Origin: Halobacterium sp. KA-4 | GTDB lineage: Archaea > Halobacteriota > Halobacteria > Halobacteriales > Halobacteriaceae | Direction: 5' to 3' | Assembly (NCBI RefSeq): GCF_021028995.1 | Contig: NZ_JAJJZG010000022.1 | Location: 1 to 43,932 of the forward strand | Length of the DNA: 43,932 nucleotides | In this document: positions 853 through 43,125 of the stretch, piece after piece | Layout: the number at the start of each line of letters is the position of its first letter | Position numbering within the stretch: position 1 is the first letter of the stretch | Made by a program: the position numbers and the translations under genes | The notes under the pieces: generated by a model | Databases searched by the model: none | The model's input: only the letters and a program-made list of their open reading frames with translations | What the model was told of the DNA's origin: nothing

Positions 853-3800
853 ATGGGACGGAATATTGACGACCTCGCGGACGACCGAGCACTAGGAATT
901 CAATCAGCTGGTGAGAACTACCACGACGAATTCCTCGTTAAACGCCCCAAAACAGAGTGGTCGCCCTATATCGATGAAACAGCGAAGGATCTTTCGTCCG
1001 GCATCCAAATCAGCGATCTTTCACTCTCGAAAGATAACTTTGGCCGGGAGTTAGGGGCCTATTACCGGCGAGGATTAAAGAAATCCGCTGGACGCTATGC
1101 CGATTTACCTGCGGTGCTAGAAGAAAGAGTCAGCGATAAGAAACTCGGCCTTCTAGCATACCAACTTAATGAACTCAGTTATGATATTTCGACGACTGAT
1201 ATCGGTATCGACGACGTCGAGAAGGCGACCGAGGCCGTAATCGAGAAACTCCTCACTCGGCACGTCGGTGAGAACTTGAGTGTCTCGTTCGACCTTTCTG
1301 GTGTAACAGTCTCTGACATTACGACACAACTGTTCAACAACGATACTATCGCCTCCAACATCGATCTGCTATTGACTGAAATCGAAAACAGCGCATCACA
1401 AGGTCTGCTTTCGCTTTTGGACGAGCCCCAGATGATGACACCACTGTGGGAGCACCAACGTGATGCGCTGCAAAAGTGGTGGGACCAGGACAGGCGTGGC
1501 TACGTAGATATGGCAACTGCCACCGGGAAAACCGTTCTCGGTCTTGGCGCAATCGCGCTCCAGTACGGCGAGTTACATCCAGATGATCAGTCTATTGGTG
1601 GGGGAGGCGGACACGCAGATTCGAACAGCAGCGACGACGTACTCATCGTCGCACATAGCGATCTGATCCTTGAACAGTGGCGTCGGGAATTCGAAAAACA
1701 CCTCAATATCCCCCAAGAGCGAACGTCGGGGAGTAACGATATTACGCTTGAATGGGGTACGATCCATTTCCGAACTCCCCAGTCCCTCGTCAACGAAGAC
1801 CAAGTAGCATACGACCTAGCACTCCTTGACGAGGCGCACCATTACGCGACTGGAAGCGAGTGGGGATCGCTCCTTGACGAGTTAGATGGCGACGTATTGG
1901 CGATGTCCGGTTCTGTTGACGACGCAGGCAGCGACAGCGAACGCATCAAGGAACGACTCTCAAACAGTATCGGCCCGGAGGTCAAACGATTCACTATCAC
2001 AGATGCGAGAGCGAAAGGTGTTATCCCCTCTTTCGACTGGGAAGTCCATTATGCTCCATACGATGTCGTCGGTGATGACCTCAAGAAAACCGCAGAACGA
2101 GCGGAACGATCGTTCCGTGGCTTCCGGAAGCGCCTACGACAAGACGATCTATCTCTCGATACTGATCGCCGACTCCGAACATATGAGGACGTCCGTCGGT
2201 TCTCCCACACGAAAGAGGGCAATTCGCTAAAACAACAGGACGAGGCGTTTCGAGACCTAGTCACTCGGCTATTTTCACGGCGGACAAAACAGTGGAATCT
2301 TTCGCCGATGTTAGATGCCGTGCTCGATCTCGTCATCGAAAATCACACGACGGAGAAGGTTGTTGTGCTTGCAGACAGCAACGCACAAGTTGAGGAGTTG
2401 GAATCCCGGATCACCGACATCGTTGCAAATCCATCTTCGGTGTATCTCGTGTCCGGCTCACAGAGCAGGGAGGAACAGCGTGAAACGATTGAGGAATTCG
2501 ATGAGCCGGAAAGTTCGGGAGTCCTTATTGGTACTGGTGACCTGCTGGGTGAAGGGGTCGATATGGAGCACGCATCAGTGGCAATCAATATGGCCACTGG
2601 TGGGGTAAATCAGGAACTCGTTCAACGGATTGGGCGTGTGCTTCGAAATCCTGACGATACGCCTAAGCACGCGATGTTCTACAACGTCGTCGGCGTCTCT
2701 CCGACCGAAGACGCAGCTATTCCGCGGGAAGACGGTAAGCAGCTTCTAGAGCAAGCAGCAGGCTTCTGTTCGCTTGGACGCCGTTTCGATAAGCTACCCG
2801 GATTTGCAAAGTCAGAGACGCTTGATGGAAGCGTTGTCGAGACGCTCTTGCATGAGGGGACACAGTTTGTCACCGCGCTTGACGCTGACGGTGAGTACGA
2901 CTGGGACAAAGAGATCATCAATCAAGCCGACCTAACGGCACTCCACGACGCTGTTCAAGCCAACGATGGAGATGTCGAGACGATTCTAGGCGAATGGGAG
3001 GAATACACCTGGGAACATAGCGAAGAGAGCACAGAGGCCCACAACGAGGAAGACACAGACGTTCCGTCTGAGACTACTGGCGACCAATCAGAAACCGAGC
3101 AAGGCGAAACGGGATCGATATCGAGTGATGCGGAGTCGCTGTCAACGACTAAGCGCGGTCGTATCGAAGACCTTGTCCGACTCCAACCAACGAAGAACGC
3201 GGCACTACAGACCCAGTGGGGGTTATCATCCGGGAGCGACGTTCACGAGTACCTCCAGTCTGACCTCGCAGACTATCACTTCCGTGATAGCGACAGCCTC
3301 ATCTGGGCCAGTGACGAAGCCGAAAGCCTCGTGAATGGTGACTCATCCACTGGAGAGGAAACAACACCATCGAAATCGGGTGCCGGCACCGGCCCGGAAT
3401 CCACTCCGGAACGTCTGACGGACAACAATTTGCTCGATGAGATTCGCCGTCTGAAGACAGATCTCGGCGAGGTACCCACAAAGATCGAGATGACGAATCA
3501 AGGAGAGTACGACGTTAGCCAGTTTGAGAGTGCCTTTGGTTCGTGGTCTACTGCAGTTCGAGAAGCAGGGTTTGAGCCCCATGGGTCACAGAAGGGCAAG
3601 TACACTCGAGAAGATGTACTCTCAGGCCTGCATGAGGTCGCCACGACGCTTGGGAAATCACCATCAGTAAACGACGTCAATAAGCACGCCCCATTCAGTG
3701 CAACCGTTGTCTACAACTACTTCGACTCAATTGGCGATGCGCGGCGAGCTGCGGGCGTTAACCAACTAGACAACAGTGAAGAAACGACAGACAGAGATGA

Positions 3801-6800
3801 GAACGCGGCGGACATAGAATCGAACCCACTTGCCGAATACTACGAGGTCTTCCGAACCTTCGCGTCGCTTCTCGAACGGCTTGTTGAGTCCGAGCAGACG
3901 GCGTACCGCGTCGACGGCGACGACCCGATGAACCGCTGGCGAGCCGAAGTTAATAACGTCATATTTGGCGATGGATTGATGGAGGACAGTCCGAGTTATG
4001 CCCAACAACAAGGCTCCCGAAATCCCCATAAGATGGCGGAATACCGCCAAGCGTTTGGTGACGGAGAGAGTGTCACTGAGTATCAATCCACAGAAACCAA
4101 GCGCTTGAACGACGAGGATGCCGCGGCGCTAATCGAACCTGACGTCATCGATCCTGACCAACAAATCTACCTCCCCGTCGCACCACACTCTGGAGTACCC
4201 CTCCCAATCACAGTCTCGTCTGACGACGAATTGGACGAGGCGATCGCGCTTCTTCAGGAATTCCCCTCGGAACCCGAACCCGCGAGTCGTGAGCAGTCCG
4301 AATCACAACCAACAGAAACCGATCAAGACGACCCGCAGTCCGACACAACTACGTCTGCCGACAAGGATGAGACTGCACCAGGGCAAGACGATAATAACCA
4401 AGAGTTAGACTCCGATACCGAGAAGGACAGCGAGACGCAGGAACAGACGATATTCTGGAAGCAGGACGTTGAGCCAATTACCGAGTACGAGGCGGAAGAA
4501 GCGGTTAATGAAGAGTCCTCCGCGAATGGCGACTCATTAGATACAAAGATCGACGAGTGGAAATCGCAGTTGCTCGACCTCACCCGGCGGAACAAACTCG
4601 TCTCGTTCAAACCAACGAAGACGAAGAGCCTCCCGTTCGAGGACTCGAACCCGACGACTATCGCGGGAGAGATTGACGGTGACGGTGAGCTCTTTATTCG
4701 GAAACGAGCGAACGAGGACGAAGAAGACGAGCAGTCTGTCATCGAAGCGAATGAAGTACTGCCGACTCGGTCACCGGATGAAGCGGCTAACTCGCTGTCT
4801 CAGATCGAGCTCAAGAACAAGCAGTACCTTCGGGAACGCGGGGTTGATTCGCTGTACCTATCACTCGGGATGCTGCGTTGGTATAGTGTAGACTACAGTG
4901 ACGAGGCGAATCGCTCGCCACTGTTCCTCGCCCCGGTCGAATTAGAAGAGAAGACGATTCAGGATGAGGAGAAACACGACTATGTTCTCAAACCAAAAGC
5001 GGATGGAATCCGGCTAAACCCGGCTCTTCGCAAGAAACTCGCGGCCGAGCGGGGAATTAGCCTGCCTGCAGATGACGCTCTCTCACTTGCAGGAATCGAC
5101 GCAGCATTCGAAGCAGTATACGAGACGCTGCGTGGCTTCGACCAGTGGACGATTCAACCGGACGTGGTGCTGGGAATCTTCGACTTCACCAAGTTCAGTC
5201 TCTACTCTGACCTAGAGCGCAACAGGGACGAAATCAAGAGCAATCCGATTATTCGGGCGCTCAACGGCGAGATGGAGCCGATTCAAAACGCCGAAGGTGA
5301 CATCACAACACCGAGTGCCTCAGAGCTTGACGATGTCGTCGATCCTATCGACACGTACCAAGTCCTTGACGCGGATTCCAGTCAGCAAGAGGCAATCGAA
5401 GCGGCGAAACGAGACAAAAGCTTCGTCCTCCAGGGACCACCCGGGACGGGGAAGAGTCAGACAATTGCGAATATCATCGCGGAGAAACTAGCTGCCGGTG
5501 AGCGCGTCTTGTTCGTGAGCGAAAAGCAGGCAGCACTCGACGTGGTCAAAAGCCGACTCAATGATGTTGGACTCGGACGATTCTGTCTCGAAGTCCACGG
5601 TGAGAAAGCGGCCAATACGGAAGTTCTCGGAAGCCTCGAAACCGAACTGCAGGCCTCGAAAATCAAGTCTTCGGACGAACGTGCCAAACGGCTTGGAAAA
5701 CTCCGAGAGCGGCGAGACACGATCAATCAGTACGGACAACAACTGTTCTACTCCCCTGACGGGTGGGATCTGACCGCGTACCAGGCGTTCGGCATCGTAA
5801 GTGAACGCGCAGACGCTCCCCGGATCGACATCGGCATCACACAACCACTGAGCGTCGAACAGGAGACACTCGAAAGTGCTGTCGATGAGTTAGTGACGCT
5901 GGCACGCTTCGACGACGAAATCGATACGTATGAAACGAGCCCGTGGCGACACACCACGCTCCGACAGTGGGGCGTGGATACCGGCAACTCGATGCGTCAG
6001 TCACTAGATCGGCAAGTCGAAGCCATCGAGACGCTACAAGACGTTGCAGACGAACTTAAGACAGAACTAGGGGTTCGTCCGGAATCAGTTGCTGACCTCC
6101 GTGAGATGAAGCAACTGTTAGACTACGTCTCGAATCGACCAGATATCGCCTGGCAGGAAGCCTTCTTCGATGGATCGTTCTCCCAAGCGGGTGGACGGTT
6201 TGAGGACCTCGCAGACCTCGAACAAGAGCGGAAATCACTCATCAACGACCTCTCAGACCACTATCAGCGGAGCTTCTTCTCTGCAAACGGCGCTGACCTC
6301 AATAATGACCTCGCAGCATACGGGATGCTGAAGGTGGTCAAACCGAGTTATCGCTCTCTCAAACGAAAGGTTACGACCCACACTCAGGAAGCCTACGACC
6401 CGAGCCACGACCAACTCCTCGAAGATACACGCAAGCTCGCCGAGGTACAGCGTATTGAAGACCGAAGGGAGGATTTCCGGGGGATTATACAGCGCCTTGG
6501 GCCGCTGTACGAAGGCGGCGATACAGATTGGGAGACGCTAGCCCAAGCCCAGCGTTGGGTTGCCGGACTTGATAAGTACGAATCCACGTTCACGGACCCG
6601 ATCATCGAGTCCCTTGTTGATAACACACTTCCGAGCGTGGGTCAATTACTGGAACGGGCGGACGCAGCGCTCGCGGACTACGACGATGCTGCCACGTTCT
6701 TCGAGAACTCGATGAACGTACAGAAGATGCGGGTCAACAGCAACTCATTCCGGAAGGCATCGTTCCCTGACCTGTCGGAGACGCTTCGAACACTTCGCGG

Positions 6801-9414
6801 TGACGTCCCTGCCTTGCAGCGCCGTGTCCAGTTCGCCTCACAACTGGAAACCGTCCGTGAAACGATTTGTGAAGAGTACGTCGAACGGTTCCTCCAAGGG
6901 GACTACAGCAGCGACCACCTCGTCCCAGCCTTCAAAAAGCGATTCTACACGAAATTGCTCAACAGCGTGTACGAGCAAACGGGCCTCGGGTCATTCAACA
7001 CTGACAAGATGGAACGGTACGTCGAAGAATTCCGTCGCTTGGACGAGGAACAACAGGAACTCGCAAAGATCGAAGTCCAACACGAGGTGACGAAACGCCG
7101 CCCGTCGTTGAATCTGGAGCACGCATCCAGCTCCGAGCAGGTACTCGTGCGCCGAGAAGCGGAAAAACAACGCAAGCACAAGCCGCTTCGTGAACTATTC
7201 GACGAAGCAGGTTCGTTTATCACGCAACTAACGCCGTGCTTTATGATGAGTCCACTATCGGTCGCCCAGTACCTCAAAGCGGACTCGATCCAATTCGACA
7301 CTGTCGTGTTCGACGAGGCATCACAGATCATGCCACAAGACGCCGTGAGCAGCCTTATCCGTGCCGATCAAGCGATCATCGCGGGCGACACAAAACAACT
7401 CCCGCCAACATCGTTCTTCCACTCCGATGTCGAAACGACGGAAGACGTGCGAGAAGATCTCGACAGTATTCTTGAGGAGACAGCCTCAGTCCTCCCCGAG
7501 AAGAATCTCCGATGGCACTACCGGAGCCGCACAGAGGAACTCATTCAATTCTCGAACTACCACTACTACAACAATAGCCTGCGGACGTTCCCTGAGAACG
7601 ACCCTGATATCGAAACCGGCGTTTCCTTCGAGTACGTCGAAGATGGCGTCTACGACCGGGGTGGGTCAAGACAAAACAAAGTCGAAGCCCAGCGCATTAT
7701 TGACTTAATCGAAGAGCACGCAGAGGAACGTAGCAACAAGAGCCTCGGCGTCGTCGCGTTCAGTAGCGCCCAAGAACAGGCGATTCGAGATGCACTTGCC
7801 GAGCGGCGCGAGGAAAGTCCCGTACTCAATGCGTTCGTCAGCCAAGACGACGTGCTTGACGAGTTCTTCATCAAGAACCTCGAAATGGTGCAAGGCGACG
7901 AACGTGACCGGATGATATTCAGCGTCGGCTACGGTCCAGCCCAAGACGGCACGATATCCACAAACTTCGGCCCACTCAACAAGAGCGGCGGGGAACGACG
8001 ACTCAACGTCGCAGTGACGCGAGCAAAAGAACAGGTCACAGTCGTGTGCTCGATGCTCCCCGGCGACATCGATCTCTCCGGATCGAACAGCACCGGTGCC
8101 AAGCACTTCAAGAACTATCTCGAATACGCGCGGAACGGCGAACAAGCGCTCGTCCGAAACGACCACGTAACTGAGACGCTTGATTTCGACTCGCAGTTTG
8201 AAGAAGCAGTATACGACGCCCTCGAAGCAGAAGGATACGACATCGTCCCCCAAGTCCAGAGCTCCAGCTACAGCATCGACTTGGCAATCAAGCACCCGGA
8301 GCAGCCCGGCAAATTCATACTCGGTATCGAGTGCGATGGTGCCGCATACCACTCCTCAAAGACAGCCCGAGATCGGGACCGCACCCGGCAGATGGTACTT
8401 GAAAACTTGGGCTGGACGATTCACCGGATATGGTCCCCAGACTGGGCGTCCAATAAAGAGCACCAACTTGAGAAAGTTGAAGAAAAGGTTCAATCTCTAC
8501 TGCAAGGTAAACCAACCACGTCTGATGCGCAGGAAATCCCCTCATATGAACCAGAAGCAATTGATTTTGATTCGAAGACAGATCATGAGGCGATCACGGA
8601 GTATCAGACCCCTGAGCTAATCCCGTCTGATCGATATTCTCCGGATAAGCAAGGGCATAGTTCGGCAATTCAAAATTCCTTGAAGGACATCGTCACCCGA
8701 TACGGACCACTTGATCGTGAGACGGCGTTTCAAACTGCTCTAGATGTCTGGTCCGAATCGAGACTCGGTAAAAACGTACAGAAGACCTTCGAGAGCGAGC
8801 TGAGGAGTCTGAAGGCCTCCGATGAGATCTTTGAGAAAGACGAGTATCTCTGGCCCAACTCTGAGGACTTGGATTTCACTGTGAAAGTCAATACTGATAC
8901 AGCAAATCGATCTATTGACGAAATTCCGATTGAAGAAGTTGCGAAAGCAGTGTCACTGCTGCTAGAAGAAGGAGGTCAAATGACCCGTGATGACCTTGGA
9001 CTGGAAACAGCCAAACTGTTCGGATATCACCGACGAGGGAACCGAATCAAGGAACGCCTCAAAACTACGATAAACTCCCTCAAAGAAATCGACGCCATCG
9101 AGGAGAACGAAGATCGGATTGCTGCCCGGCCAGAGGTAGATGTCGATAACCGATTGCTGCAAACCATATACGATACTACCTTCACCCAAGCAGAGGAAAA
9201 ATCGTCTCAAGACCCTGATCAGCATACAACGAGCCTTAGTACGAATTCGGATAACTCGTTAAATGCTAAGCAAGGGAAGATCTCTGCTTCTGAACTCGGA
9301 GGACGATGCCCAAGCTGCGGCCATCAATCGTTTAGACTTGAACACGAAGGAGAAACGGTCACTTGTCTCAAGTGCGGCAAAAACCATTTGAAAGGCTCAC
9401 TTGACCCCCTCTGA
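853..9414 (+). CDS. Giant SF2 helicase / HNH-repeat / DUF4011-SF1 helicase / Vsr-like nuclease protein
   Basis: 2853 residues. Order of parts: SF2 (restriction-type DEAD/H) helicase with Walker A ATATGKT (221-227), DEAH (326-329) and QRIGR motif VI (591-595); acidic linker; two HNH-associated repeats (about 860-907 and 920-965); second acidic linker; DUF4011-like region from about 1230 (LLDLTRRNKL); SF1 helicase with GPPGTGKSQT (1528-1537), DEAS Walker B (2154-2157) and NVAVTRAKE (about 2385-2393); Vsr/MTES_1575-type nuclease with D2476 and E2493-C-D2495; DUF3320-like region (about 2597-2790); C-terminal zinc ribbon (C2819, C2822, C2838, C2841). DUF4011-helicase-Vsr proteins are known or suspected phage-defence proteins (Hhe type in my memory); the added N-terminal helicase module of about 1200 residues is unusual. 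A weak TATA-like CCATATCG lies about 25 nt upstream of the ATG. No stop or frameshift is seen. Likely role, by inference: ATP-driven recognition and cleavage of invading DNA. Confidence 0.85.
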   Translation: MGRNIDDLADDRALGIQSAGENYHDEFLVKRPKTEWSPYIDETAKDLSSGIQISDLSLSKDNFGRELGAYYRRGLKKSAGRYADLPAVLEERVSDKKLGLLAYQLNELSYDISTTDIGIDDVEKATEAVIEKLLTRHVGENLSVSFDLSGVTVSDITTQLFNNDTIASNIDLLLTEIENSASQGLLSLLDEPQMMTPLWEHQRDALQKWWDQDRRGYVDMATATGKTVLGLGAIALQYGELHPDDQSIGGGGGHADSNSSDDVLIVAHSDLILEQWRREFEKHLNIPQERTSGSNDITLEWGTIHFRTPQSLVNEDQVAYDLALLDEAHHYATGSEWGSLLDELDGDVLAMSGSVDDAGSDSERIKERLSNSIGPEVKRFTITDARAKGVIPSFDWEVHYAPYDVVGDDLKKTAERAERSFRGFRKRLRQDDLSLDTDRRLRTYEDVRRFSHTKEGNSLKQQDEAFRDLVTRLFSRRTKQWNLSPMLDAVLDLVIENHTTEKVVVLADSNAQVEELESRITDIVANPSSVYLVSGSQSREEQRETIEEFDEPESSGVLIGTGDLLGEGVDMEHASVAINMATGGVNQELVQRIGRVLRNPDDTPKHAMFYNVVGVSPTEDAAIPREDGKQLLEQAAGFCSLGRRFDKLPGFAKSETLDGSVVETLLHEGTQFVTALDADGEYDWDKEIINQADLTALHDAVQANDGDVETILGEWEEYTWEHSEESTEAHNEEDTDVPSETTGDQSETEQGETGSISSDAESLSTTKRGRIEDLVRLQPTKNAALQTQWGLSSGSDVHEYLQSDLADYHFRDSDSLIWASDEAESLVNGDSSTGEETTPSKSGAGTGPESTPERLTDNNLLDEIRRLKTDLGEVPTKIEMTNQGEYDVSQFESAFGSWSTAVREAGFEPHGSQKGKYTREDVLSGLHEVATTLGKSPSVNDVNKHAPFSATVVYNYFDSIGDARRAAGVNQLDNSEETTDRDENAADIESNPLAEYYEVFRTFASLLERLVESEQTAYRVDGDDPMNRWRAEVNNVIFGDGLMEDSPSYAQQQGSRNPHKMAEYRQAFGDGESVTEYQSTETKRLNDEDAAALIEPDVIDPDQQIYLPVAPHSGVPLPITVSSDDELDEAIALLQEFPSEPEPASREQSESQPTETDQDDPQSDTTTSADKDETAPGQDDNNQELDSDTEKDSETQEQTIFWKQDVEPITEYEAEEAVNEESSANGDSLDTKIDEWKSQLLDLTRRNKLVSFKPTKTKSLPFEDSNPTTIAGEIDGDGELFIRKRANEDEEDEQSVIEANEVLPTRSPDEAANSLSQIELKNKQYLRERGVDSLYLSLGMLRWYSVDYSDEANRSPLFLAPVELEEKTIQDEEKHDYVLKPKADGIRLNPALRKKLAAERGISLPADDALSLAGIDAAFEAVYETLRGFDQWTIQPDVVLGIFDFTKFSLYSDLERNRDEIKSNPIIRALNGEMEPIQNAEGDITTPSASELDDVVDPIDTYQVLDADSSQQEAIEAAKRDKSFVLQGPPGTGKSQTIANIIAEKLAAGERVLFVSEKQAALDVVKSRLNDVGLGRFCLEVHGEKAANTEVLGSLETELQASKIKSSDERAKRLGKLRERRDTINQYGQQLFYSPDGWDLTAYQAFGIVSERADAPRIDIGITQPLSVEQETLESAVDELVTLARFDDEIDTYETSPWRHTTLRQWGVDTGNSMRQSLDRQVEAIETLQDVADELKTELGVRPESVADLREMKQLLDYVSNRPDIAWQEAFFDGSFSQAGGRFEDLADLEQERKSLINDLSDHYQRSFFSANGADLNNDLAAYGMLKVVKPSYRSLKRKVTTHTQEAYDPSHDQLLEDTRKLAEVQRIEDRREDFRGIIQRLGPLYEGGDTDWETLAQAQRWVAGLDKYESTFTDPIIESLVDNTLPSVGQLLERADAALADYDDAATFFENSMNVQKMRVNSNSFRKASFPDLSETLRTLRGDVPALQRRVQFASQLETVRETICEEYVERFLQGDYSSDHLVPAFKKRFYTKLLNSVYEQTGLGSFNTDKMERYVEEFRRLDEEQQELAKIEVQHEVTKRRPSLNLEHASSSEQVLVRREAEKQRKHKPLRELFDEAGSFITQLTPCFMMSPLSVAQYLKADSIQFDTVVFDEASQIMPQDAVSSLIRADQAIIAGDTKQLPPTSFFHSDVETTEDVREDLDSILEETASVLPEKNLRWHYRSRTEELIQFSNYHYYNNSLRTFPENDPDIETGVSFEYVEDGVYDRGGSRQNKVEAQRIIDLIEEHAEERSNKSLGVVAFSSAQEQAIRDALAERREESPVLNAFVSQDDVLDEFFIKNLEMVQGDERDRMIFSVGYGPAQDGTISTNFGPLNKSGGERRLNVAVTRAKEQVTVVCSMLPGDIDLSGSNSTGAKHFKNYLEYARNGEQALVRNDHVTETLDFDSQFEEAVYDALEAEGYDIVPQVQSSSYSIDLAIKHPEQPGKFILGIECDGAAYHSSKTARDRDRTRQMVLENLGWTIHRIWSPDWASNKEHQLEKVEEKVQSLLQGKPTTSDAQEIPSYEPEAIDFDSKTDHEAITEYQTPELIPSDRYSPDKQGHSSAIQNSLKDIVTRYGPLDRETAFQTALDVWSESRLGKNVQKTFESELRSLKASDEIFEKDEYLWPNSEDLDFTVKVNTDTANRSIDEIPIEEVAKAVSLLLEEGGQMTRDDLGLETAKLFGYHRRGNRIKERLKTTINSLKEIDAIEENEDRIAARPEVDVDNRLLQTIYDTTFTQAEEKSSQDPDQHTTSLSTNSDNSLNAKQGKISASELGGRCPSCGHQSFRLEHEGETVTCLKCGKNHLKGSLDPL

Positions 9415-12889: not shown

Positions 12890-13816
12890 TCAGAGAGACT
12901 CGATCATCTTGACAAGCTCACGCCCGTTGATTAACCTGAGATTATCTATCTGAGCGGCTCGATCCTTTGCGTCTTTTGTATATCCGGCTGTTGTTACAAT
13001 CACTACCTCAGAAGGTGTGAATTGTTTGTCTACCAATAAACCAGCCGAACGCTGAACGGTTCCTATTCCAACGTTATTGTTGGTGTACTTTTTCGCTTGG
13101 ATAAGAACCCGTTCCCGATTCTTTTCGGCAATAATGTCAATACCGCTGTCTCCACTACCTTTCGTTAGTTTGCAAGAATACCCGTTGGCCTGCCATACGT
13201 GGGCAACATATTCTTCAAAACTTTCAGCAGACAACTCTTTCAATTGGTGGAGGTCTACCTTTATACCTAGTTTGTCTTCCACGGGTTGAAATCCTTCTAC
13301 AGTGAGGGACGTGCACTCGTGCAAATACTGGTACGCTAACGTCCGTTCGTTGGTGAAATCTATATCCAGTTCGTATCTTAGGCCATCTGCCTTAATCACC
13401 ATCTCCGTAGTAATTGCTTCAATATCGTCGTATTCAAACTCAGATACTATGCTTCTATCTTGCTTTCCGACAAGTAATAATATCTTTTCGTCGGTGATAA
13501 ATAGAATATTTGAATAAGGTTCCTTAGCGCTCAGATAGCCGACCTGACCTTCACTTATTAGCCCTCGTTGAATCTTGTCAAGCTGAACGCGTGCATTTGC
13601 CTGAATTTCGTCATCTTCGGTCGCTTCAACCCGCAAAGCTCTCTGGTTGCTGGCGGCAACGAAATGGGGTTGCTCACCATTATCTAAATAGTCCACTGGA
13701 CGTTCTTGCGGAAGCCACTCTTTGACACCAGGTGGCACGTATCCGTTTTGATCACCCCTAAGTGCGCTCTCCCATAATTCCCCCTTTGCGTTTTCAATCA
13801 TCGATTCTATAGACAT
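12890..13816 (-). CDS. Mrr-like restriction endonuclease with N-terminal PH-like domain
   Basis: 308 residues. The C-terminal ~110 residues are an Mrr_cat (PD-(D/E)XK) domain: FEEYVAHVWQANGY, GSGDSGIDII (D227), VLIQAKKY (Q240, K242) and the Q-R-S-A-G-L helix. Mrr-type enzymes cut modified or foreign DNA. Residues about 70-175 look like a PH-like/SHOCT-type beta domain (EGQVGYLSAKEPYSNILFIT, DDIEAITTEM), often fused to Mrr in archaea and probably a sensor or localisation module. The stop lies only 9 nt beyond the IS1595 right end, so the gene's tail was nearly hit. Lower GC than the exporter operon downstream suggests transfer. Likely a defence gene next to the giant helicase/nuclease. Confidence 0.8.
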   Translation of the reverse strand: MSIESMIENAKGELWESALRGDQNGYVPPGVKEWLPQERPVDYLDNGEQPHFVAASNQRALRVEATEDDEIQANARVQLDKIQRGLISEGQVGYLSAKEPYSNILFITDEKILLLVGKQDRSIVSEFEYDDIEAITTEMVIKADGLRYELDIDFTNERTLAYQYLHECTSLTVEGFQPVEDKLGIKVDLHQLKELSAESFEEYVAHVWQANGYSCKLTKGSGDSGIDIIAEKNRERVLIQAKKYTNNNVGIGTVQRSAGLLVDKQFTPSEVVIVTTAGYTKDAKDRAAQIDNLRLINGRELVKMIESL

Positions 13817-13907
13817 AATTTCTAGTTACTACTCAAACAAGTAAATCCTCTGGTGGGAGAGTCGATATCGCCTGTTAAATAGATTTTCTGTACTGATCGA
13901 GTTCCAG

Positions 13908-14894
13908 TTACAGTTCGCCGTCTGATTTGGTGTCGAAAGATGACGCTGACTCGAAGCTAGTGAGGTCGTCTATCCGCTGTTCTAATTCTTGGATTTCTTC
14001 CTGTAGGTCTTCGGTGTCCTCGTCAGTGGCAGCTAATCGATCTTTGAGTCCTTGGAGACGCGTCTCTTTGCTTTCCTCATCGACTTCAGCTTTCCGAACA
14101 TATTCACTCTCCTCGATTTCATAGACGTCTGATTCTGAGAGTTCCGTCACCTCAAGCGCATCATCTACCTTGCTGGGATCTACGCTTGTCACACGTTCAC
14201 GGTCAATCCCTGCGTCTTCCAGTACGTCCAGTACGTCCGCATCTTCTTTGAGTGACCGATTTCGGCGTGAGGTTCGCTGGACAGACCCGTACTGCCCGGA
14301 GACAGGTTGATCGTGATGGAGCTGGTCGAGTAACACACTCCGCACACCCTGACGGAGATCATTCGCGTTTCGCTGTACGTCGGAGAGTAGTGTATAGAGG
14401 TTCACCAACGCAGGAGTGTCTACTGATTCAAGATTAGTTGGGTCGTTGCGTTCGAGCGCATCGATAAGCAAGAGTGCGTCGGAGTAGACGGAAATATCGG
14501 GCTCCTCGCGGTCGTCTCCATCTCTCTCCACCTCGTGAGCATCGACTAACGGGGAACTCGTCGGGGATTCACTTTCCGAGAGCATTCCCTCACGGTCGTC
14601 AATCTCAAACCGCGGGTGCAAGCTCAGGACAGTGGCGTAGGGTTCGGCATCAGGGGGAAGATTGTCGAGTTCAAAGCCACTCGAACCTTCGGTGACGTGC
14701 TCGTATAGAGTCTCGAACTGCTCGCGGTGGAGTGGAACGGTACCATCATCTTCTCGATACTCAATGAGAATACGGTGTTCTTGCACGTCTGTGAGTCGGA
14801 ACGGTTTGCGAGAGAGCGGCGTGAGAAGAGTCGCGTCCGGTGGCAGTTCCTCGGCGTTTTCAAGCAGGTTGTGCCAACTCACGCTGAATGTCAT
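13908..14894 (-). CDS. Acidic coiled-coil protein of unknown function
   Basis: 328 residues if the ATG giving MTFSVSWHNLLENAEELPP is used; an upstream ATG at 14921 would add nine residues but the shorter form resembles how I remember haloarchaeal homologues starting. The first ~110 residues form a compact mixed domain (PLSRKPFRLTDVQEHRILIE, LHREQFETLYEHV, AEPYATVLSLHPRFE). The middle is acidic and low-complexity, then a helical part, and the end (about 265-320) is a clear coiled coil rich in E, R, L heptads. No enzyme motif is visible. It is on the same strand as Mrr with a 90-nt gap, upstream of it, so the two may be co-transcribed and functionally linked. Function unknown. Confidence 0.7.
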   Translation of the reverse strand: MTFSVSWHNLLENAEELPPDATLLTPLSRKPFRLTDVQEHRILIEYREDDGTVPLHREQFETLYEHVTEGSSGFELDNLPPDAEPYATVLSLHPRFEIDDREGMLSESESPTSSPLVDAHEVERDGDDREEPDISVYSDALLLIDALERNDPTNLESVDTPALVNLYTLLSDVQRNANDLRQGVRSVLLDQLHHDQPVSGQYGSVQRTSRRNRSLKEDADVLDVLEDAGIDRERVTSVDPSKVDDALEVTELSESDVYEIEESEYVRKAEVDEESKETRLQGLKDRLAATDEDTEDLQEEIQELEQRIDDLTSFESASSFDTKSDGEL

Positions 14895-15019
14895 ATCGTG
14901 GTATACCCCACCAATAATCAAAAGCTCACGGATGAATTTGTCAGAGATGGCGCAGACATCTCTCCTGATCGGTAGATAGGCCGTCTGTGCTGAGCGCTCC
15001 CTGTCTGGTGTGGAAAGCC

Positions 15020-37982: not shown

Positions 37983-38543
37983 TTACTCAAGCAGGCCGAG
38001 TTCAGTGAGGCGGTCTTTGACGTGTGCCAGCGCGTGCTGGGCGTCCTCAGATTCATTTGCACCAGTAATCACGAGTTTCCCACTACCGAACAAGAGAACG
38101 ACGACATCGGGTTCATCGAGTCGATAAACAAGGCCGGGGAACTGTTCGGGTTCATACTCGATTTGCTCCAATCCCAGCCCGATCGCTATCGCGTTCAAGT
38201 TCAGCGATTGCTTGAGGTTGGCACTGGAGACGATATTCTGCACCTCAATCGGCGGATTACTCGCGACATCGATACCTAACTCGCGGATATCATCGAAAAC
38301 GATCCCGAGAGCTTCGTGAACGTCATCGACGCTTTGCGCGCCGGTACAGACGACTTTCCCCGACCGGAAAATCAGCGTGGCTGACTTTGGCTCTTGGAGG
38401 CGGTAGACGATTCCAGGGAAGTCCTCGGGGTTGTAGTCGGCGCCGGGAAGGTCTGTGGAGAGTTGGTCGAGGGCGAGTTCTTGGCCGATATCACTGGATG
38501 CAACGACGTTCTCGATTTGGATTGTGTCCACCAAAGTGCTCAT
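37983..38543 (-). CDS. tbp: TATA-box-binding protein (TBP)
   Basis: 186 residues with the two direct repeats of TBP: IQIENVVASSDIGQELALDQ, DYNPEDFPGIVYRLQEPKSA, TLIFRSGKVVCTGAQSVDDV, and again VQNIVSSANLKQSLNLNAIA, YEPEQFPGLVYRLDEPDVVV, LLFGSGKLVITGANESEDAQ. The paired phenylalanines (FPGIVYR, FPGLVYR) that kink TATA DNA are present. Haloarchaea often carry several TBP paralogues, some on plasmids, to switch promoter sets. CTTAAA about 27 nt upstream is its own TATA box. Confidence 0.95.
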   Translation of the reverse strand: MSTLVDTIQIENVVASSDIGQELALDQLSTDLPGADYNPEDFPGIVYRLQEPKSATLIFRSGKVVCTGAQSVDDVHEALGIVFDDIRELGIDVASNPPIEVQNIVSSANLKQSLNLNAIAIGLGLEQIEYEPEQFPGLVYRLDEPDVVVLLFGSGKLVITGANESEDAQHALAHVKDRLTELGLLE

Positions 38544-41715: not shown

Positions 41716-41780
41716 TTGGAAATAATGGGGAGAGGGTGTTTTATAAGTGTTCGAGGGGTTGGAAGTCGTGGTAGGTGTGG
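41716..41780 (+). other. Origin-like repeats upstream of orc1/cdc6
   Basis: TTGGAAATAATGGGG (41716-41730) with GAGGGTGT following, and TTGGAAGTCGTGG-TAGGTGTGG (41759-41780), share the TTGGAA...GTGG/GGGTGT pattern with the boxes on the other side of the gene. Such G-rich direct boxes flanking Orc1/Cdc6 genes are the usual haloarchaeal ORB arrangement. Confidence 0.6.
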
Positions 41781-41789
41781 AACCCTCTG

Positions 41790-41798
41790 GTTTTATGC
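41790..41798 (+). promoter_or_regulatory. TATA-like box for orc1/cdc6
   Basis: GTTTTATGC lies 26-34 nt before ATG 41824, the leaderless distance. A second AT-rich box, TTTTATAAG at about 41739-41747, is farther up among the origin repeats. Confidence 0.5.
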
Positions 41799-41823
41799 CA
41801 ATCGCTGTCTCACTCCATCAGTA

Positions 41824-43125
41824 ATGACTGAGTATTTCGACGACAGCCTTGTCGAGGATGTCTTCATCAAGGACATCTCCTATCTGAAGCCGGAATACCA
41901 ACCAGACGAAATCGAAGAACGGGGCGAGGAAATGGATGAATACGTTAATCTTCTCGCTCCAATTCTGAAAGGATGGGACGCCGACAACATCTTTCTCTTC
42001 GGCGAGTCAGGTGTCGGCAAGACACTCGCCACACGAACACTCCTGCCCGAGCTACAGCAGAAAGCAGAAGACAACGGTGTGGACGTAGACATCGTGGAGA
42101 CGAACTGTTCTGGCTCGCAGTCATCGTATCAAGCCGCCATTGACATCGTCAACGAACTCCGCTCTCCGACAAGCCCACTCACAACCATCGACCTGGATGA
42201 GCCCGAACTCAGTCGCACTGGGTATCCTTCCTCAGAGGTCTACGAACAACTCTTCGAGGGGCTGGCGAACGGTGACGATTACGTCATTCTTGTTCTGGAC
42301 GAAATTGATGGGCTCGGTTCAGACGGCGAACTCCTCTACCAGCTCACTCGGGGGCAGTCTATGGGTCAACTTGACTCAGAAATCTGCATCGTCGGCATCT
42401 CCAACGACCTCTACTTTAAAAATAACATGAAAACCTCAGTGCGGGACACACTCTGTGAGTCAGAAGTTCACTTCCCAGAATACGACTCTCAAGACCTGCA
42501 GTCTATTCTTCAACGCCGAGCAGAGGACGCATTCTATGAGGACGCACTCTCCGAGGACGTTATCCCGCTTTGTGCTGCGGTCGCCACCAAGGAACACGGG
42601 AGTGCCCGTTACGCCATCCGCATCCTTCGGAAGGCAACTCAACTCGCTGAAGATGAGGTTCGGAATGCTCCAGAATCCACGCAACCGTTTGAACAAGTGA
42701 AAGAACGCCATGTCCGAGAGGCAAAACGAATCGTCGAGGAGGAGACGGTCACTCGTGGAATCAAGAATTTGAGCGATTCGCAGCGGTATCTCCTGCTGTC
42801 CATCTCCCAGTATCATGCACGAGCCGAAACACCGGCTGGCACATCGGATATTTACGCTACGTATGAAGCAACAGTCAAAGAGTATGGGAAGAGTGCTATT
42901 TCCCGGCGTGGAGCGCACAATAACCTGCTTTCAATGGTAGATAAGGGCATTCTCCACATCTCCAATAACGCTCGCAATCAGCGTGGCGTCCCAAATCGTT
43001 ACTCGCTCGTTACAGATTTGGAAACTGTAGCGTCAGCACTAGAGGAGTCAGATCAGACAGATGATGGATTTATCTTAGATGATTTGCGTGCGGAAGCGAG
43101 AGAACACGGTGTATTAGATGAGTGA
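41824..43125 (+). CDS. orc1: Orc1/Cdc6 replication initiator
   Basis: 433 residues. AAA+ ATPase: Walker A GESGVGKT (60-67), Walker B VILVLDEIDGLG (D159, E160), sensor region VGISNDLYFKNNM, arginine region VRDTLCESEVHFPEYDSQDL, lid helices HGSARYAIRILRKATQLAED, and a C-terminal winged helix (YLLLSISQYHARAETPAGTS, GAHNNLLSMVDKGILHIS). ATG 41824 is chosen because longer frames enter the origin repeats and a TATA-like box sits at the leaderless distance. It binds origin boxes and loads the replicative helicase. Flanking repeats and the accessory setting suggest it drives a plasmid or secondary origin. Confidence 0.95.
   Translation: MTEYFDDSLVEDVFIKDISYLKPEYQPDEIEERGEEMDEYVNLLAPILKGWDADNIFLFGESGVGKTLATRTLLPELQQKAEDNGVDVDIVETNCSGSQSSYQAAIDIVNELRSPTSPLTTIDLDEPELSRTGYPSSEVYEQLFEGLANGDDYVILVLDEIDGLGSDGELLYQLTRGQSMGQLDSEICIVGISNDLYFKNNMKTSVRDTLCESEVHFPEYDSQDLQSILQRRAEDAFYEDALSEDVIPLCAAVATKEHGSARYAIRILRKATQLAEDEVRNAPESTQPFEQVKERHVREAKRIVEEETVTRGIKNLSDSQRYLLLSISQYHARAETPAGTSDIYATYEATVKEYGKSAISRRGAHNNLLSMVDKGILHISNNARNQRGVPNRYSLVTDLETVASALEESDQTDDGFILDDLRAEAREHGVLDE

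Follow-up and report, generated by a model that had tools for sequence, protein, structure and literature searches.

SF1 helicases with DUF4011 and a Vsr-type nuclease are found in known or candidate anti-phage families, namely Hhe (Gao Hhe; NF042953), ProA (NF058533) and PDC-S37, the last being a PADLOC label for a candidate system only. The MTES_1575 architecture is composed of HEPN, transglutaminase, SF1 helicase, Vsr REase and two wHTH domains (PMC3710099). Hhe/PDC-S37/ProA proteins are widespread. Our search of open-licence papers found no paper on how these proteins recognise invaders and none on ProA. SF2 helicases are components of other described systems. PbeABCD is a tested haloarchaeal system of phosphorothioate-blocked exclusion; it is reported to act by blocking replication and to leave viral DNA uncleaved (PMC6459918). 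ARMADA-type YprA helicases with a C-terminal Vsr have the SF2 helicase joined directly to Vsr and belong to multi-gene defence systems (PMC12458937).

In this study, we describe a haloarchaeal gene which encodes an SF2 helicase and a complete SF1-Vsr protein in one chain. The window, i.e. the whole stretch of DNA analysed, comprises 43,932 nucleotides of Halobacterium sp. KA-4 (GCF_021028995.1, contig NZ_JAJJZG010000022.1). The contig begins at window base 1 and the fusion ORF starts 852 bases into it. The domain order is SF2 helicase, DUF5797, two HNH_repeats, unnamed domain, acidic linker, DUF4011, SF1 helicase, MTES_1575/Vsr nuclease, wHTH-like region and zinc ribbon (Table 1). An original prediction from the letters alone had claimed two ATP motors and one nuclease in a single chain, in an order not known from any described system. 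Pfam indeed recovered a full SF2 helicase, DUF4011, the SF1 helicase and the Vsr-type nuclease in this order, and both motors are complete. None of the family libraries used has a model for the whole order, and no description of SF2-DUF4011-SF1-Vsr was found in these libraries and the open-licence papers searched. We propose from sequence comparison that the fusion may be a defence enzyme of haloarchaea that consists of a single protein and acts on foreign DNA, with SF2 as sensing and loading part and SF1-Vsr as effector, a reading to which we give an even chance.

Table 1. Features of the fusion gene and its product (nucleotide positions refer to the window).
Residues	Feature	Position	Strand	Evidence
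1-2853	Complete fusion ORF, 2853 aa, uninterrupted	853..9414	+	Window ORF and orthologues
1-190	Conserved N-terminal domain, no Pfam match	853..1422	+	Orthologue alignment
191-640	SF2 helicase core, PbeA / dnd_restrict_1 / XPB-like	1423..2772	+	Pfam, PADLOC, NCBIfam, alignment
763-836	DUF5797, positions 1-74 of 163-position family	3139..3360	+	Pfam
856-985	Two HNH_repeats (PF18780)	3418..3807	+	Pfam
1006-1175	Unnamed domain	3868..4377	+	Shared with many haloarchaeal proteins
1176-1226	Acidic variable linker	4378..4530	+	Orthologue alignment
1227-2756	Complete PDC-S37/ProA-type unit: DUF4011, split SF1, Vsr, wHTH-like tail	4531..9120	+	PADLOC, NCBIfam
1239-1396	DUF4011	4567..5040	+	Pfam
1481-2410	SF1 helicase	5293..8082	+	Pfam, alignment, motif check
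2449-2545	MTES_1575 Vsr-type PD-(D/E)XK nuclease	8197..8487	+	Pfam, alignment, motif check
2600-2790	wHTH-like region	8650..9222	+	PDC-S37/ProA model coverage; missing from short variant
2819-2841	CxxC...CxxC zinc ribbon	9307..9375	+	Visible cysteines C2819, C2822, C2838, C2841

Residues 1-735 constitute an SF2 helicase matching PbeA, TIGR04095 and XPB, with Pfam ResIII at 198-344 and Helicase_C at 488-599. The PADLOC models of PbeA match the SF2 core down to 1.8e-21, over partial stretches only. Both TIGR04095 and PbeA are helicases of phosphorothioation-linked systems. The SF2 motifs are Walker A with K226, DEAH at 326-329 and motif VI QRIGRVLR; those of SF1 are Walker A with K1534, DEAS near 2154 and motif VI VTRAK, and the nuclease shows D2476 followed by E2493-C-D2495. 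The original prediction had numbered both Walker A lysines and the nuclease aspartate correctly. It did not contain DUF5797 and the unnamed domain. Its two HNH-associated repeats are present by Pfam (the first at 856-908), yet they are no defining part, being missing from the divergent fusions of genomes G226 and G389. A role of the repeats as nucleases was ruled out: the family comprises repeats that accompany homing endonucleases, and this short variant has none. The fusion therefore has a single recognised nuclease, and its HNH_repeats are probably DNA-binding. The unnamed domain is also present in unfused SF2 relatives (G144, G190), on their C-terminal side. A query containing it matched 48 of 392 genomes, and the domain is widespread in haloarchaea. 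In G136 (L101:6618-7988) it is N-terminal in a 456-aa protein, the remainder of which looks Mre11-type phosphoesterase-like by eye; the domain may be an adaptor of DNA nucleases. Structure predictions of residues 987-1480 (single sequence) and 1-760 (three sequences) reached a mean pLDDT of 38 and 34, too poor for a fold search.

The C-terminal half was previously suspected to be of a defence type and does belong to known or candidate anti-phage families; by itself it is not new, since PDC-S37/ProA/Hhe and the MTES_1575 architecture are already known. PDC-S37 covers it end to end (model positions 4-1544 of 1550, 1395 bits). ProA spans residues 1203-2727 with 1290 bits, under its cut-off of 1500, which is also missed by one unfused haloarchaeal and two bacterial relatives (1314, 1391 and 1404 bits). 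Hhe scores 815 bits, under the NCBIfam cut-off of 2000. Pfam places AAA_11 from residue 1508 and AAA_12 at 2216-2400, and the two parts of the SF1 helicase are separated by a long, less conserved insertion (about 1621-2050). The nuclease match to PF18741 (MTES_1575) has 125.6 bits against a cut-off of 38.2. Two further elements of the original prediction fared less well. DUF3320 has no significant Pfam match in the fusion; the region is covered by the PDC-S37/ProA models, and in a bacterial homologue DUF3320 follows the nuclease. The C-terminal zinc ribbon is visible in the sequence, but it stays under all Pfam cut-offs and lacks conservation among orthologues. HNH repeats, DUF3320 and zinc ribbon are thus non-defining, because G226 and G389 do without HNH repeats, DUF5797 and wHTH and the C-terminal tail varies.

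Searches of the haloarchaeal order were run with the halves and the junction as queries, on partial genome samples. Fused relatives were found in haloarchaea of at least six genera and four families: 8 of 392 sampled genomes, from six genera and four families, carry the fused form, and Halorientalis persicus (L009) and Halosimplex salinum (L010) provide two further loci. Of these ten loci, eight are long forms, i.e. the window and seven orthologues (L009, L010, G058, G049, G138, G163, G327), and two are the shorter, divergent fusions of G226 and G389 (2369-2373 aa; two species of another genus). Six long orthologues aligned full length are 71-82% identical to the window protein. The N-terminal domain has 82-93% identity among long orthologues and 56% in the short variant, which lacks DUF5797, HNH_repeats and the wHTH region and otherwise retains 62% identity in SF2, 40% in the unnamed domain, 45% in DUF4011, 56% in SF1 and 54% in Vsr. 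The core common to all fused forms consists of N-terminal domain, SF2, unnamed domain, DUF4011, SF1 and Vsr. Across the seven long forms aligned, every SF2, SF1 and nuclease motif inspected is conserved. The ORF is under purifying selection, with dN/dS of 0.09-0.13 across it and the lowest values for the motors and the nuclease (Nei-Gojobori method; for the more distant pairs, dS approaches saturation).

The existence of both halves as separate genes would agree with an assembly error that brought two unrelated genes together, or with a decaying chance fusion. We regard this explanation as refuted for practical purposes, since it is contradicted by the ten fused loci from independent assemblies, by the conservation of the motifs and the junction region and by purifying selection. 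The fusion is real, because it recurs across several related genera. Trees built for each half separate the fused forms, long and short, from unfused genes with support of 0.999-1.0, which fits one fusion event. The proteins of G058 and G049 are 95% identical though the genomes belong to different families, which points to a recent transfer; together with the patchy distribution this points to horizontal spread.

A phylum-wide sample of 295 genomes contained relatives of the N-terminal half in no order but the window's own; their genes are often 780-1150 aa long and without SF1-Vsr. The C-terminal half occurs on plasmids of bacteria and haloarchaea, with 394 matching records at E 1e-20. No such record covers 80% of the whole query, and among the matches listed all start at about residue 1177 or later. 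Unfused homologues of this half have about 1570-1720 aa and start near DUF4011 or with a short extension. Scans of viral contigs found no relative, and a phage collection contained one distant C-terminal half. The unfused SF2 relative of G144 (1147 aa) includes the unnamed domain and the start of an unfused C-terminal half, G058:C28, resembles residues 1195-1220; the junction is therefore placed near 1170-1195, at the acidic linker.

Behind the closest unfused SF2 relative (L099:7813-14661, G281; 59% in the core), the place of SF1-Vsr is taken by a 1358-aa gene that combines a bacterial PH domain with HNH_repeats and the unnamed domain; the same SF2 motor has another partner there. Haloarchaeal plasmids carry a near-constant SF2 helicase of 1600 aa (L056:8750-13552, L057:9507-14309, L058:8959-13749, L060:4704-9497, L064:9662-14467, L065:9662-14455), with four HNH_repeats in L058, the one scanned. 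Several copies are near VWA, HEAT-repeat, ADP-ribosylglycohydrolase and AAA-ATPase genes, possibly an undescribed defence cassette. At L053 and L055, unfused N-terminal half genes adjoin TGT-like (DpdA-like) and HATPase genes, and L053 also has a DpdJ-like and an Orf5/HEC-06-like gene; these are possible Dpd-like modification systems. The window's genome itself contains, on another contig (L059:9296-18613; G000 contig C54), an SF2 and DUF5797-like gene, after which come genes resembling HmaC and HmaB; this is an Hma-like module with a PbeA-related helicase.

Downstream of the fusion, the window shows IS-type repeats. An Mrr-type endonuclease gene and a 337-aa gene without assigned function follow at 12890-14921; by eye, a relative of the latter lies at L096:2-598, about 6.5 kb upstream of the G327 fusion. 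Genes for TATA-binding protein and Orc1/Cdc6 (37983-38543 and 41716-43125) suggest that the contig derives from a megaplasmid or secondary replicon. In G058, G049 and G327, a similar HTH regulator gene (199-217 aa; L041:12241-12894, L043:10298-10918, L096:15948-16547) is convergent with the 3' end of the fusion and possibly marks an insertion site.

Neighbours of the fusion include pAgo or pPIWI genes (G163, G049), type IIG-like methylases (G058, G163), HmaC-HmaB (downstream in G327) and an Mre11/Rad50-like pair (G049, L010). Inspection of translations revealed no recognised defence gene around the fusions of G138, G226 and G389. The neighbours vary from locus to locus and none is a constant partner, which fits the earlier suggestion of a self-contained system; for this reason the fusion is probably a self-contained DNA-targeting defence enzyme. 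The HmaC-HmaB pair was rejected as a fixed partner, since it is present at one fusion and one C-terminal half (G058) yet common elsewhere, and so was the Mre11/Rad50-like pair, which also occurs at the G136 locus without a fusion.

The kinship of the SF2 part raises the possibility of modification-dependent restriction, in which SF2 would read whether DNA carries a modification introduced by other host or island genes, and SF1-Vsr would cut DNA of the wrong status. Relatives of the N-terminal half belong to modification-linked systems, as the PbeA/dnd_restrict_1 matches indicate, and unfused N-terminal halves stand beside DpdA-like TGT genes, in G188 also beside DpdJ-like genes. The paralogue in the window's own genome adjoins HmaC- and HmaB-like genes, and the same pair lies at the G327 fusion and the G058 C-terminal half. 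However, no modification gene has a fixed position next to the fusion. HmaC by itself is common, being present in 42 of 293 genomes, so that linkage can be island co-residence, and a close HmaC is missing from the window's genome. We consider this reading possible, if rather doubtful.

AddAB-like helicase-nuclease pairs are repeatedly found next to the fusion (G163), next to C-terminal half genes (G014, G058:C28, a Halomontanus plasmid) and next to N-terminal half genes (G126, a Haloferax lucentense plasmid). On the Halomontanus plasmid, an SF2-HNH_repeat gene, a C-terminal half gene and the AddAB-like pair are found together as separate genes; this cluster is suggestive, although its SF2 gene is from a more distant subfamily. 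An obligate partnership was rejected, as both AddAB-like subtypes are common in haloarchaea without either half, and the pairs were for this reason not counted as a fixed partner. Expected to act on DNA ends, they would suit a Hachiman-like sensor of genome integrity, whose SF2 would detect free ends or stalled forks and unleash Vsr on all DNA of the cell as a suicidal effector. Such helicase-gated nuclease logic is known for Hachiman (PMC12278908). With so weak an association of AddAB, and with no match of the SF2 part to HamB in PADLOC, we think this decidedly unlikely. A chromosomal protein for DNA repair or replication-fork processing would be in line with the IGHMBP2-type likeness of SF1, the XPB likeness of SF2 and the Mre11/Rad50-like neighbours of the L010 and G049 orthologues, and SF1-Vsr proteins could act in repair. 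The occurrence of that pair without a fusion, the distribution in 8 of 392 genomes, the signs of horizontal spread, the defence-gene neighbours and the anti-phage family matches speak against a repair protein and make it very improbable.

The defence reading is based on the family membership of the C-terminal half and the PbeA/Dnd-type kinship of the N-terminal half, on the patchy, horizontally spread distribution, on the defence-gene neighbours and on the strictly conserved ATPases and nuclease. From these we infer the defence role, DNA as substrate, the division of labour between the motors and the gating of the nuclease. An SF2 helicase of the PbeA/Dnd-restriction kind would have been fused once, via the acidic linker, before a complete PDC-S37/ProA-type protein. 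The SF2 part with the N-terminal domain and the HNH-associated repeats may bind DNA, translocate and judge it foreign or abnormal. It would then load or license the tethered SF1 (DUF4011) motor, whose Vsr nuclease would nick or cut the DNA. A bolder version, which we hold to be unlikely, is a one-gene restriction machine: SF2 and SF1 motors would alternate or converge and trigger one nuclease with no separate specificity or modification subunit, SF2 replacing HEPN or another Hhe-like N-terminal part as an interchangeable sensor.

Natural fusion with a restriction-type helicase suggests a DNA motor as the sensor of Hhe/PDC-S37/ProA proteins. The fusion is one expressible gene in which sensor and effector are separately mutable. 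Haloarchaea seemingly reuse one SF2 helicase module with several defence partners.

Compared with known systems, the fusion resembles Hachiman HamAB (PMC12278908) in a possible helicase-controlled nuclease logic, a functional analogy only; Hachiman consists of two proteins, with HamA as nuclease. With ARMADA-type YprA helicases it shares a helicase and a Vsr nuclease in one chain. However, the fusion combines a PbeA-like SF2 with a whole SF1-Vsr unit and has no constant partner, YprA is of another SF2 lineage, and the DUF1998 region of YprA helicases is absent among the Pfam matches listed. The ResIII/Helicase_C core significantly matches PbeA models, whereas Pfam did not find the PLD domain of PbeA, and the fusion carries its own predicted nuclease. 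Its nuclease is the Vsr-type REase of the MTES_1575 family. As to the remaining MTES_1575 traits, HEPN is absent among the matches listed (25 of 28 Pfam families) and there is no R-x4-6-H between residues 904 and 1575; the two wHTH domains overlapping DUF3320 correspond to a region without Pfam DUF3320 match that is spanned by the PDC-S37/ProA models. PDC-S37 is matched over the whole model by the C-terminal 1530 residues, and ProA over positions 332-1903. ProA positions 1-331 are unmatched and its score stays under the cut-off; the fusion has an extra 1226 N-terminal residues with SF2, DUF5797, HNH_repeats and unnamed domain. Hhe and the MTES_1575 architecture are the nearest described relatives of the C-terminal half; they share with it the SF1 helicase and Vsr nuclease with DUF4011, and differ from the fusion by the SF2 module it has in front.
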